Shown here: positions 5,103-53,161 of the stretch, one piece after another | How the letters are laid out: each line of letters begins with the position of its first letter | Position numbering within the stretch: position 1 is the first letter of the stretch | Origin: Methanolobus sp. | GTDB lineage: Archaea > Halobacteriota > Methanosarcinia > Methanosarcinales > Methanosarcinaceae | DNA length: 64,000 nt | Direction: 5' to 3' | Assembly (NCBI RefSeq): GCF_016278365.1 | Contig: NZ_JADQBZ010000005.1 | Location: 186,001-250,000 of the forward strand | The notes under the pieces: model-generated | Told to the model about the DNA's origin: nothing | Database searches by the model: none | Seen by the model: the letters and a program-made list of their open reading frames with translations, nothing else | Translations under genes and position numbers: made by a program

Positions 5103-5212
5103 AGGCAATTATCCTATGTAGGTTATATGGCAGGTTCCCTTTCCGGATAGAACTGAAAAAGATTAATAAGGACCTGCTGTAATTATGTTAGCATTATCTC
5201 AAAGGTGAACCA

Positions 5213-44703: not shown

Positions 44704-44807
44704 TACCGCAGTCCGGCCTGCACCTGCAACTAAAAGCAGCTATCGATGTAAGCAAGCCTCCGCAATATTAATATGTAAAGCATCTGTTTACATCATGCTC
44801 CTTTTGT

Positions 44808-44892
44808 GCGGGGGTTGCCCAGCCAGGTCAAAGGCGATGGGCTTAGGACCCATTTTCGTAGGAATTCGTGCGTTCGAATCGCACCCCCCGCA
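44808..44892 (+). tRNA. tRNA-Leu (anticodon TAG), casposon target
   Basis: 85 bases with a long variable arm, as expected for Leu. Acceptor GCGGGGG/CCCCCGC is perfect and the discriminator is A. Anticodon loop CTTAGGA carries TAG at 34-36. T-arm GTGCG-TTCGAAT-CGCAC is perfect. The first four bases of the casposon's 14-bp target-site duplication are the last four of this gene; insertion downstream leaves the tRNA intact. Confidence 0.95.
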
Positions 44893-44902
44893 TCCGATTT
44901 TT
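44889..44902. repeat. Casposon target-site duplication, left copy
   Basis: CGCATCCGATTTTT, identical to 53148-53161, with the inverted-repeat termini directly adjacent in both cases. A 15-bp reading with an extra C is possible because of flanking C bases. Confidence 0.9.
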
Positions 44903-44936
44903 GGGTTATAGTTAACAAGAAAAAACGGAACTATTT
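44903..44936 (+). repeat. Casposon left terminal inverted repeat
   Basis: 34 bases, matching the reverse complement of 53114-53147 at 33 positions (the single difference is G/C at position 17). Weaker similarity extends about ten bases inward (TTTAATTA). Confidence 0.95.
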
Positions 44937-45175
44937 CGTTTAATTAGTACAGTTGTTTAATCAATATAATCAACAGTATTTGTATACGTCCACAATTTAC
45001 TTATTTTTAATGTTAGGTATTTGGGAAAATTAACTGAACTATCACTGAAGATATACGGCCCATCAATAACAAAAAACATAATATTAAAAAGTTGGAAAAA
45101 CAAAACCCTTCTTCTTTTCTACAAAAGTTTATATTCTGTGATTTTGTAGTACTTTATGTTTATTCTAGAGGTTGC

Positions 45176-45955
45176 ATGGGATCCCCAACAATTAATGAAC
45201 TTGAAGAGAATATCAATAAAAGAAGAATATTTATATCATTAATTCTAGTTTTATTTCTTGGATGGATTATAATTGCATTATACAATCCTGATTATCCTTA
45301 CCTGTTATTAATTACTATATTGTTACTGATTTCCATAGTTGTTATATCGAGATATACTCCCTATATCTCAAATGTCGATATTATACAGTATCACTTGATA
45401 AAACTAATCGAATCTTCAAAAAATAATGACGTTAAGAAATCTCAAGTGCACATTAATAAACTAGCAGAGGCCATTTATAACACTAACATTGAACTGGGAA
45501 ACAATGGATTAGATAGTTTATTTATACTAAATCCTGCTAGACAAATATTAGCCGACTTTTTAAAATACCTACGGCACATGTGTCAATATTCGACAGAATC
45601 CAATTTAAATAGTTGGTCTGCTAGTTTAGAAGATATTAGTTTTGCAATAGGTAATAAAAATATAGCACTTTTAACAGATACAATTGACAAATTTATAATA
45701 CAAGACAGAGATATCAAATCTGATGTTTTATTCTCCTATGAGAAACCATCCATTTTGGAACGTTTTATGAAAGAGATTATGCACCTAATTAAGAATAATA
45801 CGCGTGTCAATTACGTTGTGAAATTAACTTTTGTATTATTTTTGCTTGTAGGTATTGCATACTTCCTTTCAATAAAAGTATCGTTCATAACTTTAGATAA
45901 TTATGCGATGGGAGTCTGCTTATTAGCAGCTGTCGGGATCGCTCAAAAAATATAA
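45176..45955 (+). CDS. Casposon left-end polytopic membrane protein, unknown
   Basis: 259 residues from the ATG preceded by AGAGG; an ATG 84 bases upstream lacks a site and adds unconvincing sequence. Two membrane helices near residues 20-60 (RIFISLILVLFLGWIIIALY, YLLLITILLLISIVVI), a soluble helical domain of about 130 residues, and two at the C terminus (VKLTFVLFLLVGIAYFLSI...). I do not recognise it. It converges on cas1 with a 72-bp gap and is likely cargo. Confidence 0.65.
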   Translation: MGSPTINELEENINKRRIFISLILVLFLGWIIIALYNPDYPYLLLITILLLISIVVISRYTPYISNVDIIQYHLIKLIESSKNNDVKKSQVHINKLAEAIYNTNIELGNNGLDSLFILNPARQILADFLKYLRHMCQYSTESNLNSWSASLEDISFAIGNKNIALLTDTIDKFIIQDRDIKSDVLFSYEKPSILERFMKEIMHLIKNNTRVNYVVKLTFVLFLLVGIAYFLSIKVSFITLDNYAMGVCLLAAVGIAQKI

Positions 45956-46027
45956 TCATTTTAGTATAATATTGTCCTGCTCATATAGTATTTTAATACT
46001 GTTACTAAAGAGGGAATGATTTTTTTA

Positions 46028-47230
46028 TCAACCGTTTTCCCACATCTCTAACCTTTCCCGAACATGAGCATTAAGAGTAAAGGGTTTGTAAGCTTGAGCA
46101 TTTTTCTTCATGTAATGGAGAGCGCCTTTTGAGAAACCCATATTCTCCCAATCAGTATAAGATATGCTCAGTATTTTCTGCCTTATATCTTCTGAATCCT
46201 GCCTTTCAACTGTATATACAGGTTTGCTGAAATCAACAGTCTTTTTCTTTTCAACAATGAACTGCGCAAGCTCCCTAGTCTTTAACAATAAAGCATAACT
46301 CCACATTACAGATTGCTTCTGATATGGTACTTTCTTATTCATCCATTTGTTGAACTCTTCAGTAACTTTCTTAGCTCCTGAGGGCTTTAGCCTGAGAGAG
46401 TAACTTTCTGTCCTGATAAAGTCCTGATTATCCATTTTTCCCGATTCAATAAGGTTGATAACTGCAAGATCAACAAGAAACCTAAAGGGTTCTTGAAGGT
46501 CATAGGCTAGACTATCCTTGCTTGGATTCATCTCATGCAAGAAACCAACATGAGAATCCATACCTACTGTATTGATGGCTCTCAAGCATTCAGCTTCAAG
46601 GAGTGCATAGCCATAGTTGAGCATAACATTAACTTTGTCTCCTGCCCCTGTTGCTCTCCTGTATTGGTCACTTCTTGAACAGAAATCATATTCAACAAAA
46701 ACAACCTTTGCAAACTCATTCCAGTACTTCCATGCAACTCCACCTTCAACACCCATAATCTCCTTGACAGATTTAGCAGAATTCAGTTTTTCAATATCTT
46801 CTGAGAAATCATACTCTATTGCAGGATACCTTTGTTTAAGATAGTCCAATACTACTTTGGACTTATCGAACTTTGCTTCAATAAGGTTCCTTGCTATCTT
46901 TACTCTTGTATCTTCATCCTCGTAAGCGTGATATTGTGCAAACTTGATTTTTACATTGGTACTTTCAGGAGAGAGCATTGCAGTTAGTAATTGACCATCC
47001 CAGTTTAGAATAGATACCTGCACATTATGTTTTATCAACCATCTAACAGCATCAAGAGTAAGGTTTCCATTCCTGCCATAAACTATTATGTGGTCTATGT
47101 CCATCCTTTTTGGAGAGAAAACATACTCTTCAGGCTCTTCAGTTGATATGGTTCTTCCATTCTTGATATGTAGTTTTGCACTATTGACACGCATATCTAT
47201 TCCGTGGCCATCAAGTAGAAGCATTTTCAT
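46028..47230 (-). CDS. cas1: Cas1 endonuclease (casposase)
   Basis: 400 residues, longer than CRISPR-associated Cas1 proteins (about 300-340), as known casposases are. The N-terminal beta domain contains IIVYGRNGNLTLDAVRWLIK. Candidate catalytic residues are E162 (MGVEGGVAWKYW), H232 (VGFLHEM) and D244 in YDLQEPFRFLVD, in the usual Cas1 order. The C-terminal about 60 residues look like a helical DNA-binding extension (SYTDWENMGFSKGALHYMKK). It integrates the casposon's ends into the target. Its start overlaps the previous stop (TAATG). No cas2 or CRISPR repeats are present. Confidence 0.92.
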   Translation of the reverse strand: MKMLLLDGHGIDMRVNSAKLHIKNGRTISTEEPEEYVFSPKRMDIDHIIVYGRNGNLTLDAVRWLIKHNVQVSILNWDGQLLTAMLSPESTNVKIKFAQYHAYEDEDTRVKIARNLIEAKFDKSKVVLDYLKQRYPAIEYDFSEDIEKLNSAKSVKEIMGVEGGVAWKYWNEFAKVVFVEYDFCSRSDQYRRATGAGDKVNVMLNYGYALLEAECLRAINTVGMDSHVGFLHEMNPSKDSLAYDLQEPFRFLVDLAVINLIESGKMDNQDFIRTESYSLRLKPSGAKKVTEEFNKWMNKKVPYQKQSVMWSYALLLKTRELAQFIVEKKKTVDFSKPVYTVERQDSEDIRQKILSISYTDWENMGFSKGALHYMKKNAQAYKPFTLNAHVRERLEMWENG

Positions 47231-48126
47231 TAGAAATCAGCCTCCCTTTCTTTTATGTCACCTAATATCTTGGCAACTTCGTATTTTACATTATACACAA
47301 GCCTAGCTTCTTCATCTTTGCCTTCTTTCTTAAACTGATTTATCATGTTGAATAATTCGAGTTTGTGCCTAGCAATAACCCTAGCAGTGTAAATATTGCC
47401 ATAGTCATCTTTTATTTTATCAAAGTGTTTTTCAACTTCCAACTTTTCAAGGTCGTACTTCAACCAATCAATAACAGAATCATCATTATAGTAACCAAGG
47501 ATGAATATAAGTCCAGTTCTGTATAATTCATGATCTCTTGAAACCCCTGCAAACTGACTCAAAATGTCATTTAAATATTTGATTAACTTCTCTTTATTAA
47601 TAGGGGTAATATTTTTATCAGTTATATATTCCTTCAAAATTCGTATGATATGGAATTGCAGTTTTTCATCATCAGTAAATAGATTATCAACTAAAACATC
47701 CAGTTTTTCCCGAGTCAATGAATATGTTTCTTTGTGGAGGTCTATTTCATTTAGAATCGAGTTTTTATCATAGTCAGGATGATTTGATTCAAAATAAGAA
47801 AACAATGTATCGAGATATTCATAATCCTCTATAATTTCTTCTAGAGTTAGATATGAAGCGTTTCTATTCTTGTCATCAATTCCGTACTTCTCCAAATCAG
47901 GATATTTTACAATAATCAAAGATTTCCTTTTAGTTAATCTTGCAAGCTTACGCTCTACACTTGGCCTAGTATATCCCCGTTTTTCTTGATGTTTCTCTAT
48001 CATGTAATCTATGAGTTGCCGCCTTCTAACAAAGCGATTTTTGTACACAAAATCAAGCACCTCTACATCAAAGTCTACATCGTTTTTGATACTATTTACA
48101 TTATCAGATGGCAATTTTACTATCAT
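47230..48126 (-). CDS. Winged-helix protein coupled to casposase
   Basis: 298 residues from the ATG at 48126, probably leaderless because TATATAT lies about 25-30 bases upstream. Residues 15-100 read like a winged helix: LDFVYKNRFVRRRQLIDYMI, a recognition region with PSVERKLARLTKRKSL, then a wing. The rest is helical and charged. Tight coupling with cas1 (TAATG) suggests a regulator or an end-binding partner of the casposase. I do not know a named family. Confidence 0.7.
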   Translation of the reverse strand: MIVKLPSDNVNSIKNDVDFDVEVLDFVYKNRFVRRRQLIDYMIEKHQEKRGYTRPSVERKLARLTKRKSLIIVKYPDLEKYGIDDKNRNASYLTLEEIIEDYEYLDTLFSYFESNHPDYDKNSILNEIDLHKETYSLTREKLDVLVDNLFTDDEKLQFHIIRILKEYITDKNITPINKEKLIKYLNDILSQFAGVSRDHELYRTGLIFILGYYNDDSVIDWLKYDLEKLEVEKHFDKIKDDYGNIYTARVIARHKLELFNMINQFKKEGKDEEARLVYNVKYEVAKILGDIKEREADF

Positions 48127-48153
48127 ATTCTGTATCAAAGATTACATCAAATC

Positions 48154-48190
48154 CATATATATCTTTTCCCATGCTAGTGCTTTTTGGTGA
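48154..48190. promoter_or_regulatory. Divergent casposon promoter and Shine-Dalgarno
   Basis: CCATATATATC serves as a TATA box that reads on both strands: leftward to the leaderless winged-helix gene, rightward to the RHH-like gene. GGTGA at 48186-48190 lies seven bases before its ATG. Confidence 0.55.
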
Positions 48191-48197
48191 CAAACCA

Positions 48198-48335
48198 ATG
48201 AATAGCAATAGGATAATAACAACTCTTTCTCCTTTCCTCAAGGAGAAACTCGAACAGATGTCAGATAAGTTTGGATGTTCTCAGGCTGAAGTTGTCAGAA
48301 TTGCCTTACTGAAACTCTGGGAGGAAGAGAAATGA
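48198..48335 (+). CDS. Small ribbon-helix-helix-like protein of the casposon
   Basis: 45 residues: a short beta strand (NRIITTLSPFLKEKLEQMSDKF) then helices ending AEVVRIALLKLWEEEK, the CopG/Arc pattern. The ATG has GGTGA seven bases upstream; upstream in-frame starts lie across the divergent promoter. Probably a dimeric DNA-binding regulator of the element. It overlaps the next start (ATGA). Confidence 0.7.
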   Translation: MNSNRIITTLSPFLKEKLEQMSDKFGCSQAEVVRIALLKLWEEEK

Positions 48336-48970
48336 GCAGGCCAAGTTTCTCTAAAGACTACAGGACTTATGGAGAATGGCTCAAAGCTCAATCCAGAGAT
48401 TCCAGGTATGCAAAAGAGATCATCAGGAAGCATGAGAAATATCCAGATAAGAGCCTAAACCAACTGAGGAAGCTTAAGGTAAGTGATTATGACCTAAGCC
48501 AAACCGTTTGGCAAAATCTAACTTCTCAACAGAAGAGTGACAGAAACCTAGCTCTTAGTGTTCTGAGGGAAGTCAGGAAGGGAGAGTCATTAACTCAGGT
48601 ATTGGAGAAGAGGGGACTTAGAAGAGAGTTTGTACTAAAGAATCTTGGTAACCAGCTTCAGAAGTCAAACGGGAAATGGATTGCAAACAAGACTGACAGC
48701 TTAGAGGTTGAGATGTTGGTTTACTCTAAGGATGGAGTAAGAACCATAGTAACCACTTCCTCTAAAGACAGAAGCAGGATTGCAAAGTACTTCAATGATG
48801 TTCAGAAGGCTTTGAAAAACAATGATACTGCAATCCTTCAGAAGTACAAGGACATGAAAATTATTGATGCAGAAGGTAAAGTGCATCAGTTTGAGACAGA
48901 TATTGATAAGATACGTGATTTAGAAGCAGGAATTGAAGAGCCTGAATTTCTGGAAATTTATCAAATCTAA
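48332..48970 (+). CDS. Casposon protein of unknown function (212 residues)
   Basis: Lys/Arg-rich and mostly helical. The N-terminal 50 residues (SKDYRTYGEWLKAQSRDSRY) and a middle segment (VLREVRKGESLTQVLEKRGL) look like HTH-type DNA-binding helices. ATGA overlap with the RHH-like gene and 12-bp spacing to the HNH gene put it in the replication operon. Its position suggests a DNA-binding accessory to replication or integration. I recognise no family. Confidence 0.65.
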   Translation: MSRPSFSKDYRTYGEWLKAQSRDSRYAKEIIRKHEKYPDKSLNQLRKLKVSDYDLSQTVWQNLTSQQKSDRNLALSVLREVRKGESLTQVLEKRGLRREFVLKNLGNQLQKSNGKWIANKTDSLEVEMLVYSKDGVRTIVTTSSKDRSRIAKYFNDVQKALKNNDTAILQKYKDMKIIDAEGKVHQFETDIDKIRDLEAGIEEPEFLEIYQI

Positions 48971-48982
48971 GGAGTGGATACT

Positions 48983-49315
48983 ATGGAAAAAGAAGCGTAT
49001 GTGAATTACATCAAAAGAAACAAGAAAGGAAAGATACCACCTACCGCATGTGTGGTATGTGGGGAAGATGACCCCGAAGTAATTGAGATGCATCATGTTG
49101 AGGGTAGGAATAACTCTGACTGGATAGAACCCCTTTGTAAAAACTGTCATTCTAAAATTACAACAAAGCAGAATAGAGTTAGTCCTAAAGCAAGGTCAAG
49201 TAATGCTTCCTTGCAAAACCTGAGAGCTTTCAATATAATCTCTATTGGTGCCCTTGTTGTAGAGCTTGGAAATAGTTTGATTAATGTTGGATATGAGATG
49301 GTTGAAAATGTCTGA
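48983..49315 (+). CDS. HNH endonuclease of the casposon
   Basis: 110 residues from the ATG with GGAG eight bases upstream; the GTG at 48974 overlaps that site. HNH core: zinc Cys pair C23-x2-C26, the HH at 37-38 in EMHHVEGRNN, and C52-KNC55-H56. A C-terminal tail of about 45 residues includes a hydrophobic segment. HNH nucleases are common casposon components, with a role still unclear. The stop overlaps the PolB start by eight bases. Confidence 0.85.
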   Translation: MEKEAYVNYIKRNKKGKIPPTACVVCGEDDPEVIEMHHVEGRNNSDWIEPLCKNCHSKITTKQNRVSPKARSSNASLQNLRAFNIISIGALVVELGNSLINVGYEMVENV

Positions 49316-51980
49316 CATTGCATTAAGAGTTTATACTCAGAGGGCTAAGAGAACAGATAAGAAAAAGGCTAATTTAGCCTTTTTCATGGATAAAACACCC
49401 TTGCATCATAGAAGAGTTTTTGTTTTTGATACAGAAACTACAATAGACACGTATCAGAATCTTAAGATAGGCTATTTTCAGATATACCAGGATGGATATA
49501 TTCAGCATGAAGAGCTATTCTATAACCCTTATACTTTATCCGATAATGAAAAGAAGATACTATTTAACTATAAGGACATATATAATTTAGCTCTCTATAC
49601 CCTTGATGAGTTTATAGAAGACGTATTTTATCCTGAAATCTATAATCTAAAAACTCTATGTGTAGGCTTTAATTTACCTTTTGACATAAGCAGGATAGCT
49701 AAAAGGGTAGGAGATTCAAGGGATAAGAATAAGGGAGGATTTACCTTTACCTTATCCGAAAAGGAAGAGAATCCTCAGATAGTCATTAAAAAGCTTGGTT
49801 CAGCATACAGTTTGAAATTCAATGGAACAAAAGAAAATCAAGGCAAAGATAAACATTATGGCTATTTACTTGATGCTCAAACTCTTGCTGAAGTATTGCT
49901 TCGACAAGATCATATCTCTCTTAAGAAAGCCTGCGAGCTGCTCAATACTAAAACAAAGAAGATGGAAGACGTTGAACATGGAAAGGTAACAAAGAGATAT
50001 ATTGACTATCTGAGAACTGATGTAAGAGCTACTTTTGAAGTGTATGAGAAGCTTATTACTGAGCTTAATCTATATCAGATAGACATCCCACCTACAAAGA
50101 TATACAGTAATGCTTCACTTGGCAAATATGCACTAATGCAACTTGGAGTAAAGCCTTTTCATGAACTGAATCCTGATTTCTCTCCTGAGATGTTTGGAAA
50201 TATGATGACCTCTTACTATGGAGGAAGGTGTGAGTGCAAGATAAGGAAAGTGCCAACTAAGGTTACAGTTCTTGATTTTACAAGCATGTATCCAACCGTT
50301 ACAATGCTCCTTGATCTCTGGAAGTTCATTATTGCTGAGTCAGTTGAAATGAAAGTTGTTACTGATGAGATAAGAGAGATGCTCTCAGGAGTTAACCTTG
50401 ATTATCTGCAAAATAAGAATAACTGGAAGGACTTTGTTGTAATGGTCAAGTTACATCCTGATGAAGATATCCTACCTGTCAGGAAGAATTACAAAGGGGA
50501 AGGTAATGCTTATAATGTGGGTATCAATTACCTGAAGTCTGATTTTGATTTGTGGTATGCTTTACCTGATGTTATAGGCTCAGTTCTTCTTACTGGAAAA
50601 GTAGCAGAAATTGTGGAAGCTGTCAGATTCATTCCTAAAGGAATCCAAGAAGGTTTGAAGGAAACAAGGATACTAGGAATTGATGTCAATCCAACAAAAG
50701 AAAACTTAGTTCAAGTTCTTGTTGAGGAAAGACAAAAGATAAAGCAGGAGTTAGAGACTCTAAGCGAAAGCCATCTAGATTATCAGCCACTAAAAAGCAG
50801 AGCCCAGGCTATCAAGATTCTTGTTAATGCTATGAGCTATGGAATATTTATTGAGCTGAATCCTGAAGAGAAAAAAAGCGATATTGAGGTTTATGGGCTT
50901 GATAACTTCAATAGTTCAGAGAATATCTATGAGAAGGAAGGCAAATATTTCCATCCTCTTTTGGGTGCTATGATCACTTCAGGCTCACGGCTATTTCTTG
51001 CAATGGCTGAAGCTAAAGTAAAACAGCTTGGTTCAACCCATGCTTATATGGATACTGATAGTATTTTTGTTGCTCCTGAACATGCACAGGAAGTCATGGA
51101 CTACTTCCAGAAATTAAACCCATATAACCCAGAGCTTAATATTGATTTCCTGAAGGATGATAAGAAAATTGATGTATGGTTTTATGGTATCTCTTCTAAG
51201 CGTTATGTTCTCTATCGTATCGTAAAAGGCAAATTTGAATTGATAGATTTCAAGTTGCATGGACTTGGTCATCTAACAAACCCATTCTCGAATAAGGAAG
51301 GCTGGCAAGAAGAAATATGGCTTGACATTCTGAAAGTCCATTATGGAATGATAGAGCCTGAAGACATTGAAGAGAAGTATTCTAACCTCTATGCTATTTC
51401 ACAGCTTACTGTTAGTACTCCTAATGTGCTTCATAGATTTGATAAGTTGAATAAAGAGAAGTCTTGGGAAGAGCAGATTAAACCTTTTGGTTTTTTCCTT
51501 CTTGGTTTCCAGACAATCGAAGAGAATGGTAAAACTGTCAAGCCTTTAGCACCCTTTACAAAAGACTATCAAAGCATTGTACATAATCCATTCATTAATT
51601 ACGAAACAGGAGAGATTAAACACGGATTACACTACTTCAAGCCATTGAGTAAAACTATCATGCAATACTCAGAACACCCCGAACATAAGTTTGAGGGAGA
51701 TATTGGTATTCTGGAGAGAAAGCACATTCATGCTAAGGATACTATTGAAATTGGAAAGGAAGCCAATAGTATTGATGAGCAGTCTTTAGGGATTAAGAGA
51801 GCCCAGGAATTTGTTAATAAACAGAAAATCATGAAGAGGATTCTCAACATGTCACAAACAGAAGCTGAAGCAAGAGGAGTTTCTAGGAGCAGGTTTCAGG
51901 GGATTAAGCAAAGGATAAGAAAGAATGAGGATTTGAATTTGAATACTCCTGCAGTGAGTAGGTTGTGTTCTTATTTTTGA
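49308..51980 (+). CDS. polB: Family B DNA polymerase of the casposon
   Basis: 890 residues from the ATG at 49308. Exonuclease motif I has D41 and E43 (VFVFDTETT); motif II is CVGFNLPFDISRIA; motif III is YLRTDVRATFEVYEKL. Polymerase motif A has D323 (LDFTSMYPTV), motif B K503 in KILVNAMSYG, and motif C YMDTDS with D582 and D584. All catalytic residues are present, so proofreading and synthesis should both be active. It is expected to replicate the element. Protein-primed or RNA-primed type cannot be decided by eye. Confidence 0.92.
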   Translation: MSDIALRVYTQRAKRTDKKKANLAFFMDKTPLHHRRVFVFDTETTIDTYQNLKIGYFQIYQDGYIQHEELFYNPYTLSDNEKKILFNYKDIYNLALYTLDEFIEDVFYPEIYNLKTLCVGFNLPFDISRIAKRVGDSRDKNKGGFTFTLSEKEENPQIVIKKLGSAYSLKFNGTKENQGKDKHYGYLLDAQTLAEVLLRQDHISLKKACELLNTKTKKMEDVEHGKVTKRYIDYLRTDVRATFEVYEKLITELNLYQIDIPPTKIYSNASLGKYALMQLGVKPFHELNPDFSPEMFGNMMTSYYGGRCECKIRKVPTKVTVLDFTSMYPTVTMLLDLWKFIIAESVEMKVVTDEIREMLSGVNLDYLQNKNNWKDFVVMVKLHPDEDILPVRKNYKGEGNAYNVGINYLKSDFDLWYALPDVIGSVLLTGKVAEIVEAVRFIPKGIQEGLKETRILGIDVNPTKENLVQVLVEERQKIKQELETLSESHLDYQPLKSRAQAIKILVNAMSYGIFIELNPEEKKSDIEVYGLDNFNSSENIYEKEGKYFHPLLGAMITSGSRLFLAMAEAKVKQLGSTHAYMDTDSIFVAPEHAQEVMDYFQKLNPYNPELNIDFLKDDKKIDVWFYGISSKRYVLYRIVKGKFELIDFKLHGLGHLTNPFSNKEGWQEEIWLDILKVHYGMIEPEDIEEKYSNLYAISQLTVSTPNVLHRFDKLNKEKSWEEQIKPFGFFLLGFQTIEENGKTVKPLAPFTKDYQSIVHNPFINYETGEIKHGLHYFKPLSKTIMQYSEHPEHKFEGDIGILERKHIHAKDTIEIGKEANSIDEQSLGIKRAQEFVNKQKIMKRILNMSQTEAEARGVSRSRFQGIKQRIRKNEDLNLNTPAVSRLCSYF

Positions 51981-52064
51981 ATTGGAATAAACAACTTTAA
52001 ATTTGTTAGACACAATACTTAATATAATAATGTAATTCAATATTGAACGTAAGGACAACTACTG

Positions 52065-52988
52065 ATGCTTAATTTTAATGGCGATTTTAATGATATAAGT
52101 GTGCTAGACTATCTTGCTATATATTTCATTATAGCAATAATTGGTAACATTTTACAGCACTCATTAAGATACTTGTTTTTTGATAGAAAAGGTAAAAGAA
52201 AGCAAAATGAATTAATTGGGGCTTTCAGGGGTAGTAAGTCAATAAGTCCTTACATCAACAAGTTTGATAAGATTAAATATTTTAATAGAGCTGATAAATC
52301 GATAATTGCATTAAACATTGGATTCTTTTTAGGTTTTTTCTTACCATTCGGTTCTTTATACCTTATGCTTTGGTTTACTGAAAACGTCTCTAAAATAGAT
52401 TTAGATGAGTTACTAGCTTTGAAGATTTTTATATATACAATATTATTAACATTTCTCATCCCAACAAGTAGTCTTTTAATTATGCAAAAAAGGATTGAGA
52501 CTTCTATTAAAAAACAAACTATCTTGAACAAAGCAACTAGTTTTGCAGATGCTTTTACTTTTTTTGCGGTTTACATACTCACATCTTTTCCCATAAATTT
52601 ATTGTTTTTAATTCCCATCTTGTATAACTGGAATTCTATACCAAATAAGATTCATTTTTTACAAATGACATTTATGATTGCTATTACTTTAATGGTGACA
52701 ACACCAATATTATATATTGGTGCTTACCACTCATTCAAAAGAAAACTCAAGACTGTTATAAATAAAAACTATGGTGATAAATACCCATATCTAAAAATAA
52801 CGACTGATGAAAATAAAGAGATACAAGGATATATTTTAGATATTTTTAATGAAAAAGTCATTAAATTATTTTATGACGGTTCTGAAAAAATAGTTTTATG
52901 GGATTCAGTTCATTCAGTAGAGATTAATAATACTCATAACATTCGACAAAATGAAGAAATTCAAAGAAATTTGTATGATTACATTTAA
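52065..52988 (+). CDS. Casposon right-end polytopic membrane protein, unknown
   Basis: 307 residues with about five membrane helices: LDYLAIYFIIAIIGNILQHS, LNIGFFLGFFLPFGSLYLML, IFIYTILLTFLIPTSSLLIM, ILTSFPINLLFLIPILYNW, and MTFMIAITLMVTTPILYIGA. A C-terminal soluble part of about 65 residues (ITTDENKEIQGYILDIFNEK) is beta-like. No family recognised and no relation evident to the left-end membrane protein. It is the last gene before the right inverted repeat and is likely cargo. Confidence 0.65.
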   Translation: MLNFNGDFNDISVLDYLAIYFIIAIIGNILQHSLRYLFFDRKGKRKQNELIGAFRGSKSISPYINKFDKIKYFNRADKSIIALNIGFFLGFFLPFGSLYLMLWFTENVSKIDLDELLALKIFIYTILLTFLIPTSSLLIMQKRIETSIKKQTILNKATSFADAFTFFAVYILTSFPINLLFLIPILYNWNSIPNKIHFLQMTFMIAITLMVTTPILYIGAYHSFKRKLKTVINKNYGDKYPYLKITTDENKEIQGYILDIFNEKVIKLFYDGSEKIVLWDSVHSVEINNTHNIRQNEEIQRNLYDYI

Positions 52989-53113
52989 CATCAACTTGTT
53001 ATGCCCTTCTAATAGGCTTAGAAAATATAATGTCAATCAAAATAGATAATATATTTTGAGACTGAGCATCATTTGTGTATTTTTAACCGTTGTCAAACAT
53101 TTATAATTAATAA

Positions 53114-53147
53114 AAATAGTTCCGTTTTTTGTTGTTAACTATAACCC
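53114..53147 (-). repeat. Casposon right terminal inverted repeat
   Basis: Ends TTAACTATAACCC, the inverse of the left end; 33 of 34 positions match. Confidence 0.95.
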
Positions 53148-53161
53148 CGCATCCGATTTTT
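53148..53161. repeat. Casposon target-site duplication, right copy
   Basis: CGCATCCGATTTTT, an exact copy of the tRNA-Leu 3' end and ten following bases at 44889-44902. Confidence 0.9.

Follow-up and report, generated by a model that had tools for sequence, protein, structure and literature searches.

RESULTS

A Family 2-type Casposon Next to tRNA-Leu(TAG)

The window, by which we mean the whole 64,000-nucleotide stretch of a Methanolobus genome that was analysed, contains an apparently intact casposon of the family 2 type at positions 44903-53147 (8,245 bp). Casposons are Cas1-driven elements that have been proposed as the source of CRISPR adaptation. The target gene of this one is a tRNA-Leu with the anticodon TAG (44807-44895, plus strand, located with ARAGORN). 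The element begins and ends with terminal inverted repeats (TIRs) of 34 bp, at 44903-44936 on the plus strand and 53114-53147 on the minus strand, which match at 33 of the 34 positions and carry an inner box at 44926-44932 (CGGAACT) and 53118-53124, respectively. Beyond these 34 bp the similarity is weaker, reaching 44 nt at 91% identity, and the number of such pairs expected by chance in 9 kb is about 1e-11. The TIRs are flanked by two copies of the target-site duplication (TSD) CGCATCCGATTTTT, at 44889-44902 and 53148-53161, which are identical at all 14 positions. The mature 3' end of the tRNA is probably position 44892, so that the CGCA of the TSD forms the end of the tRNA. The T-arm of the target tRNA-Leu places GTTCGAAT at -17 to -10 relative to the TSD, and the T-arm sequence upstream of CGCA reads GGTTCGAATC.

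A preliminary description of this locus had claimed that tRNA-Leu is the site of a complete casposon whose exact ends are given by 34-bp inverted repeats with 33 matches and by a 14-bp target duplication, and all of its coordinates hold on recomputation. The check that it proposed, a search for the empty tRNA-Leu site in relatives, was run with both flanks joined at the TSD against 27 genomes of the genus and speaks for the claim, as two close relatives carry such a site. In one of these (G018) the sequence is collinear straight across the junction at 90% identity, and in the other (G006) the identity is 94% over 230 bp spanning the junction; each has a single TSD copy behind an intact tRNA-Leu(TAG). 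The empty-site copy in both genomes is CGCATGCGATTTTT, which differs by one base from the two copies in the window. Such a difference would be expected from the duplication of a host copy with the base seen in the window, or from a copy carried along by the element, as has been suggested for Methanosarcina mazei (PMC10359463). The host has the exact 14-mer a third time, at C11:281946 inside a coding gene, which looks like a coincidence.

The eight genes of the element are arranged in an order in which the core is enclosed by two cargo genes, and all core reading frames are open. From the left, a 287-residue putative membrane protein whose start codon is uncertain (45092-45955, plus strand) is followed on the minus strand by the Cas1 casposase of 400 residues, which ends in a helix-turn-helix (HTH) (46028-47230; Pfam Cas_Cas1, E 7e-66), and by a 302-residue core protein (47230-48138). 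The latter has no Pfam match, stands at the position of the HTH/HEAT protein of family 2 casposons and has homologues at the same place in all compared elements. The remaining genes are on the plus strand and encode a ribbon-helix-helix (RHH) protein of 45 residues (48198-48335), found in 31 of 31 compared elements; a 212-residue protein (48332-48970), again with no Pfam match, which like the 302-residue protein sits in the place of one of the two HTH proteins that accompany HNH in a family 2 core; an HNH endonuclease of 110 residues (48983-49315); a family B DNA polymerase (PolB) of 890 residues (49308-51980); and a second putative membrane protein of 307 residues (52065-52988). The Pfam score of the HNH protein is under the cut-off (E 0.0015), and the motif HH...N...H with its CxxC pairs is nevertheless legible in the sequence; for PolB the PF00136 cut-off is only narrowly exceeded, with the exonuclease and the polymerase A and C motifs in place. 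Residues 836-890 of PolB (51813-51977, plus strand) form a C-terminal HTH similar to that at the C terminus of Cas1, and this pairing is a feature of family 2. Also typical of family 2, within the Methanosarcinaceae, is a position like the present one at the 3' end of a tRNA, with a TSD that includes CGCA. Scans of the eight proteins against Pfam and NCBIfam found no Cas2, integrase or other transposase.

The Cas1 protein and the M. mazei casposase (6OPM) can be aligned from end to end with no gap (E 1.6e-185), and the M. mazei residue numbering can thus be transferred. It retains Glu-162, Arg-191, Arg-192, His-232 and Glu-247, which are all the residues shown to matter in the M. mazei enzyme, where Glu-162, His-232 and Glu-247 make up the active site and the two arginines contact CGCA (PMC6977970). 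The genes for Cas1, PolB and HNH named in the preliminary description are all present, and the Glu-His-Asp residues that it assigned to Cas1 belong to a fuller catalytic set of Glu-162, His-232, Asp-244 and Glu-247. This conservation supports, but does not prove, that the casposase is active.

Other Casposons in the Host and in the Family

Of the 112 genomes of the family, 51 contain relatives of the Cas1 protein (E < 1e-40). We delimited about 30 casposons by exact TSD and TIR and compared about fifty relatives overall. The core layout is constant in 31 elements, with Cas1 and the 302-residue protein gene on one strand and the RHH, 212-residue, HNH and PolB genes on the other. Among viral contigs no PolB was found, and the one contig with a C-terminal Cas1 fragment and a casposon end (L221) is not informative.

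The host itself has a second, larger casposon island (C11:175893-192222, corresponding to L027 1894-18223) between TSD copies at tRNA-Leu(TAA). Its ends are composite, its cargo comprises HsdR, HsdS and HsdM of a type I restriction-modification (R-M) system together with caspase-like and DpdB-like genes, and another casposon end or relic directly follows it across a shared TSD. Relics of PolB and Cas1 lie on contigs C4, C5 and C8 and lone ends on C7 and C18; the host relics and lone ends (L025, L026, L176, L177, L178 and L219, on C5, C4, C7, C18, C11 and C8, respectively) belong to several of the box classes defined below, and most of the lone ends follow a T-arm-like piece that is not part of a tRNA gene. 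The host assembly has no second identical copy of the window casposon, which is present as a single copy only.

Cargo at the Ends of the Elements

The genes between core and ends differ in each element compared and would constitute exchangeable cargo. The two membrane-protein genes of the window casposon are rare cargo. Neither protein has a match in Pfam, NCBIfam or PADLOC or a relative among the viral contigs, and the single-sequence structure model of the 307-residue protein is uninformative (pLDDT 47). In G033 a distant relative of the 287-residue protein adjoins a Cas1 relic. The 307-residue protein has a 63% relative in G021 (L186 4439-5365), which lies directly behind tRNA-Leu(CAG) with no casposon core, so that cargo apparently also moves or survives by itself.

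We surveyed the cargo of the other elements (119 open reading frames outside the element of the window, of which 118 proteins were scanned). Sets of HsdR, HsdM and HsdS are found in six elements (L027, L112, L113, L148, L149 and L162), that of L113 with only HsdR named individually and its neighbors assigned by length and order. The other cargo includes PifA/KAP-like, SIR2, caspase and Eco57I-like proteins and the PADLOC candidates PDC-S14, S31 and M36A, and defense cargo is seen at the ends of L101, L102, L108, L109, L111 and L158 as well as of the same six elements. Complete type I R-M systems and other defense genes are frequent cargo in this family of casposons. That the membrane proteins of the window might also be defense genes is only a guess, made from the company that they would keep with the cargo of sister casposons.

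The Inner Box of the TIR Follows the C-terminal HTH of PolB

Across the elements the TIRs share their outer part (GGGWWATA...) and vary in the inner box, from which we defined seven classes using the TIR sequence alone: CSGAACT (the class of the window), GTGTACG after A, TTTGTACG, GCAACG, CACTACG, GCMACY and GATACT. The C-terminal HTH of Cas1, like the tRNA target, is nearly invariant over all of these classes, whereas the C-terminal HTH of PolB varies with the box class across genera. The two HTHs are homologous (hhalign 96%, E 1.3e-9). The structure model of the C-terminal segment of PolB shows a helical HTH with high confidence (pLDDT 82-96), and a Foldseek search with this fold gave no match with E below 1 and hence no convincing structural relative.

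We quantified this relationship in the 26 elements whose two ends agree in class by asking whether the nearest neighbor of a protein, taken from another genus, has the same box. For the PolB HTH this was so in all 26, compared with an average of 3.2 after shuffling the labels within genera. The other proteins gave far fewer matches, with 8/26 for the rest of PolB, 2/26 for the catalytic part of Cas1, 3/26 for the Cas1 HTH, 9/25 for the 212-residue protein (ORF212), 8/26 for HNH, 3/24 for the HEAT protein and 2/26 for RHH. When 176 sliding windows of 40 residues over five proteins were compared, the best was PolB 851-890 (AUC 0.96; rank correlation with inner-box distance 0.64), and none outside the PolB C terminus exceeded an AUC of 0.78. 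Mapped on trees, the box class changes 6 times on that of the HTH, which is the minimum possible, and 13 times on those of the main part of PolB and of Cas1. An early idea, that the TIR follows HNH, ORF212 and PolB as a block, was replaced, since only the C terminus of PolB follows the inner box.

The box class was then predicted from the HTH for new loci. Among 38 new PolB C termini, 26 had a recognisable end downstream, and the prediction was correct for 25 of them (within-genus shuffles: mean 7.3, maximum 17, p 5e-5), a count that includes a few loci whose first end-like match had no known box and for which the next match was used, the end of L211 accepted with GTATACG for GTGTACG, and some loci that had been fetched earlier, though outside the training set, all of them from the same archaeal family. 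The single miss (L163, PolB end at 5186 on the minus strand) means that similarity of the whole domain is not sufficient for predicting the box; its recognition helix, KYRSTLKKIKDK, resembles that of the class observed, as was noticed afterwards.

The C terminus of PolB lies at a median of 1.8 kb from the near end of the element and 8.5 kb from the far end, which adjoins Cas1, and in 27 of 30 elements the two TIRs agree in class. In the three elements with unlike ends (L027, L112 and L159), which are explained as composites in arrays, PolB agrees with the near end and not with the far end. A different dependence is seen for the outer part of the TIR, in that distances over positions 1-14 (22 elements) follow HNH and PolB main-part distances (r about 0.6) in preference to those of Cas1, and a second reader for this outer part is possible.

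Target Recognition and Arrays

Of 29 casposon targets, 25 have the T-arm sequence GTTCRAAT at exactly -17 to -10 from the TSD, among them targets that lack a tRNA gene, and mutation of the T-arm region abolished integration in vitro (PMC6977970). Tandem casposons are already known (PMC10359463, PMC9939771); in our set, 25 of 30 elements abut another casposon end across a shared TSD (for example L100/L101, L104/L105 and L102/L103), and the window casposon is one of the few lone elements. Wherever the T-arm side could be recognised the neighboring casposon is on the side away from it, which implies that the arrays grow next to the T-arm. Casposon arrays would in this respect grow beside the tRNA T-arm where CRISPR arrays grow beside the leader. 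The idea that like casposons avoid each other in arrays was dropped, as 2 of 24 junctions join the same class against 3.7 expected, a difference that is not significant.

Several smaller arrangements were seen alongside the arrays. Modules of ∼85 bp in L148 (2310-2440), L158, L191, L194, L195 and L196 consist of a TIR (32 bp), ∼24 AT-rich bases and a target (T-arm plus CGCA) that has received the end of the next casposon; those of L195 start right behind a real tRNA-Leu, and such modules are possibly mobile landing pads. The complete casposons L149 and L110 each have, 55-65 bp in from the right end, a T-arm/CGCA landing pad in which a further casposon end is nested. In G043, probably Methanococcoides burtonii, which has three Cas1 copies, three adjacent casposons of three box classes form one array (L159 and L160). 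An earlier survey reportedly found no common TIRs for the three casposons of M. burtonii, and the three box classes in this array may explain why.

DISCUSSION

We conclude, with a probability of about 85%, that the window contains a complete casposon of the family 2 type whose insertion at the tRNA-Leu(TAG) 3' end came after the lineage had split from its sequenced relatives, whose ends have two readers, Cas1 and the PolB HTH, and whose cargo is exchangeable. That the insertion postdates the split we infer from the empty sites. Given that tRNA 3' ends are classic integrase sites, the locus could also have arisen as a genomic island delivered by a tyrosine integrase or by homologous recombination, with the casposon core as a passenger. 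This is very improbable, since the element genes include no integrase or transposase and the boundaries are exactly those of casposon TIR and 14-bp TSD, an end structure that already refutes an island. We give more room, though still as the doubtful alternative, to a casposon that is complete to the eye yet immobile, inherited vertically and decaying like many copies in the genus; the many casposon relics in the genus and in the host, the single copy and the fall-off of TIR similarity past 34 bp are what such an element would leave, but the empty site in two close relatives, the identical TSDs and the open core frames with their catalytic residues speak against it. Present-day mobility of the casposon is plausible, judged from its intact genes, identical TSDs and near-identical TIRs.

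For the ends, we think it likely from the covariation of sequences that they are read in two parts, Cas1 reading the extreme end and the tRNA target and the C-terminal HTH of PolB reading the element-specific inner box, so that the same fold would have stayed constant on Cas1 and given rise to at least seven specificities on PolB. The chemistry of the casposase, its 14-bp stagger and its recognition of T-arm and CGCA are established in relatives (PMC6614799, PMC6977970), and about 5-6 terminal nucleotides suffice in vitro (PMC6614799, PMC6977970). By analogy with the M. mazei enzyme, Cas1 of the window would join the CCC-3' ends of the element across the 14-bp stagger at CGCA, positioned by the upstream T-arm, so that the tRNA stays intact. 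Cas1 would need the extreme end only, its nearly invariant HTH serving the invariant target, and the PolB HTH would bind the inner box (CGGAACT in the window) and bring the polymerase to the ends of its own element for copying. Such reading of the own box would keep the replication of several casposons in one cell apart. The inner box could also be an origin or an excision signal that PolB meets only indirectly.

Two other accounts of the covariation have to be weighed against reading by PolB. If the PolB HTH and the inner box were merely linked neighbors that travel together by recombination, one would expect what is seen in the orientation of PolB towards one end at a median distance of 1.8 kb and in the three composites, where only the near end matches. 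We nevertheless consider linkage unlikely, as variable cargo separates PolB from the near TIR and the rest of PolB, which is nearer than the far TIR, hardly follows the box. Above all, 27 of 30 elements repeat the class at their far end, next to Cas1, and Cas1 does not follow the class, a pattern that simple hitch-hiking does not explain and recognition does. Slightly less probable still is that the box is read by another protein of the element, be it the casposase through its HTH, RHH, the 212-residue protein, HNH or the HEAT protein. The correlation of HNH and PolB main-part distances with the outer 14 nt of the TIR lends this some weight, but in the cross-genus comparison none of these candidates exceeded 9 matches in 25, against 26 in 26 for the PolB HTH.

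The window element is a new casposon of a known type, with an empty site, and what is new is the comparative statement on how the ends are read. We found no earlier statement of the link between PolB and TIR in the literature searched, which left out the key 2016 comparative paper (on the tandem casposons and solo TIRs of M. mazei). The Aciduliprofundum boonei study states outright that the way in which casposons are copied and the reason for ends of 30-40 bp are open, integration needing about five nucleotides (PMC6614799), and the covariation offers a candidate and testable answer for ends of ∼30 bp, namely that the polymerase reads the rest of the end. A PolB segment of 55 residues would then allow the ends of an element to be predicted, and reading in two parts would account for how several casposons can coexist in a single genome. 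The role suggested here for the Cas1 HTH, recognition of the invariant target, addresses a question that the casposase structure paper left open.

Among the closest known systems are the family 2 casposons of M. mazei (MetMaz-C1 and the copies at tRNA-Leu), which share with the window casposon a Cas1 that aligns without gaps, a 14-bp TSD starting with CGCA and the tRNA-Leu 3'-end target (PMC6977970, PMC10359463), as well as the Cas1, PolB and HNH genes and the design of the TIR, GGGATATAGGTAACTCAAAAAAACGCAACGC in M. mazei. The window element differs from them in belonging to another genus, in its box (CGGAACT versus CGCAACG in M. mazei) with a correspondingly different PolB HTH, and in its cargo. 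The family 2 casposon of A. boonei resembles it, by its published description, in TIR and TSD design and in a target made up of tRNA T-arm and 14-15 bp (PMC6614799), but targets tRNA-Pro instead of tRNA-Leu. Within our own set, L098 (from G006), L101 (from Methanolobus bombayensis), L105 and L102 have the core order of the window casposon, a Cas1 of 83-90% identity and the inner box class SGAACT, and yet occupy other sites, carry other cargo and have a mosaic core, as in L098, where the identity to the window casposon is 90% for Cas1, 70% for PolB and 45% for HNH.
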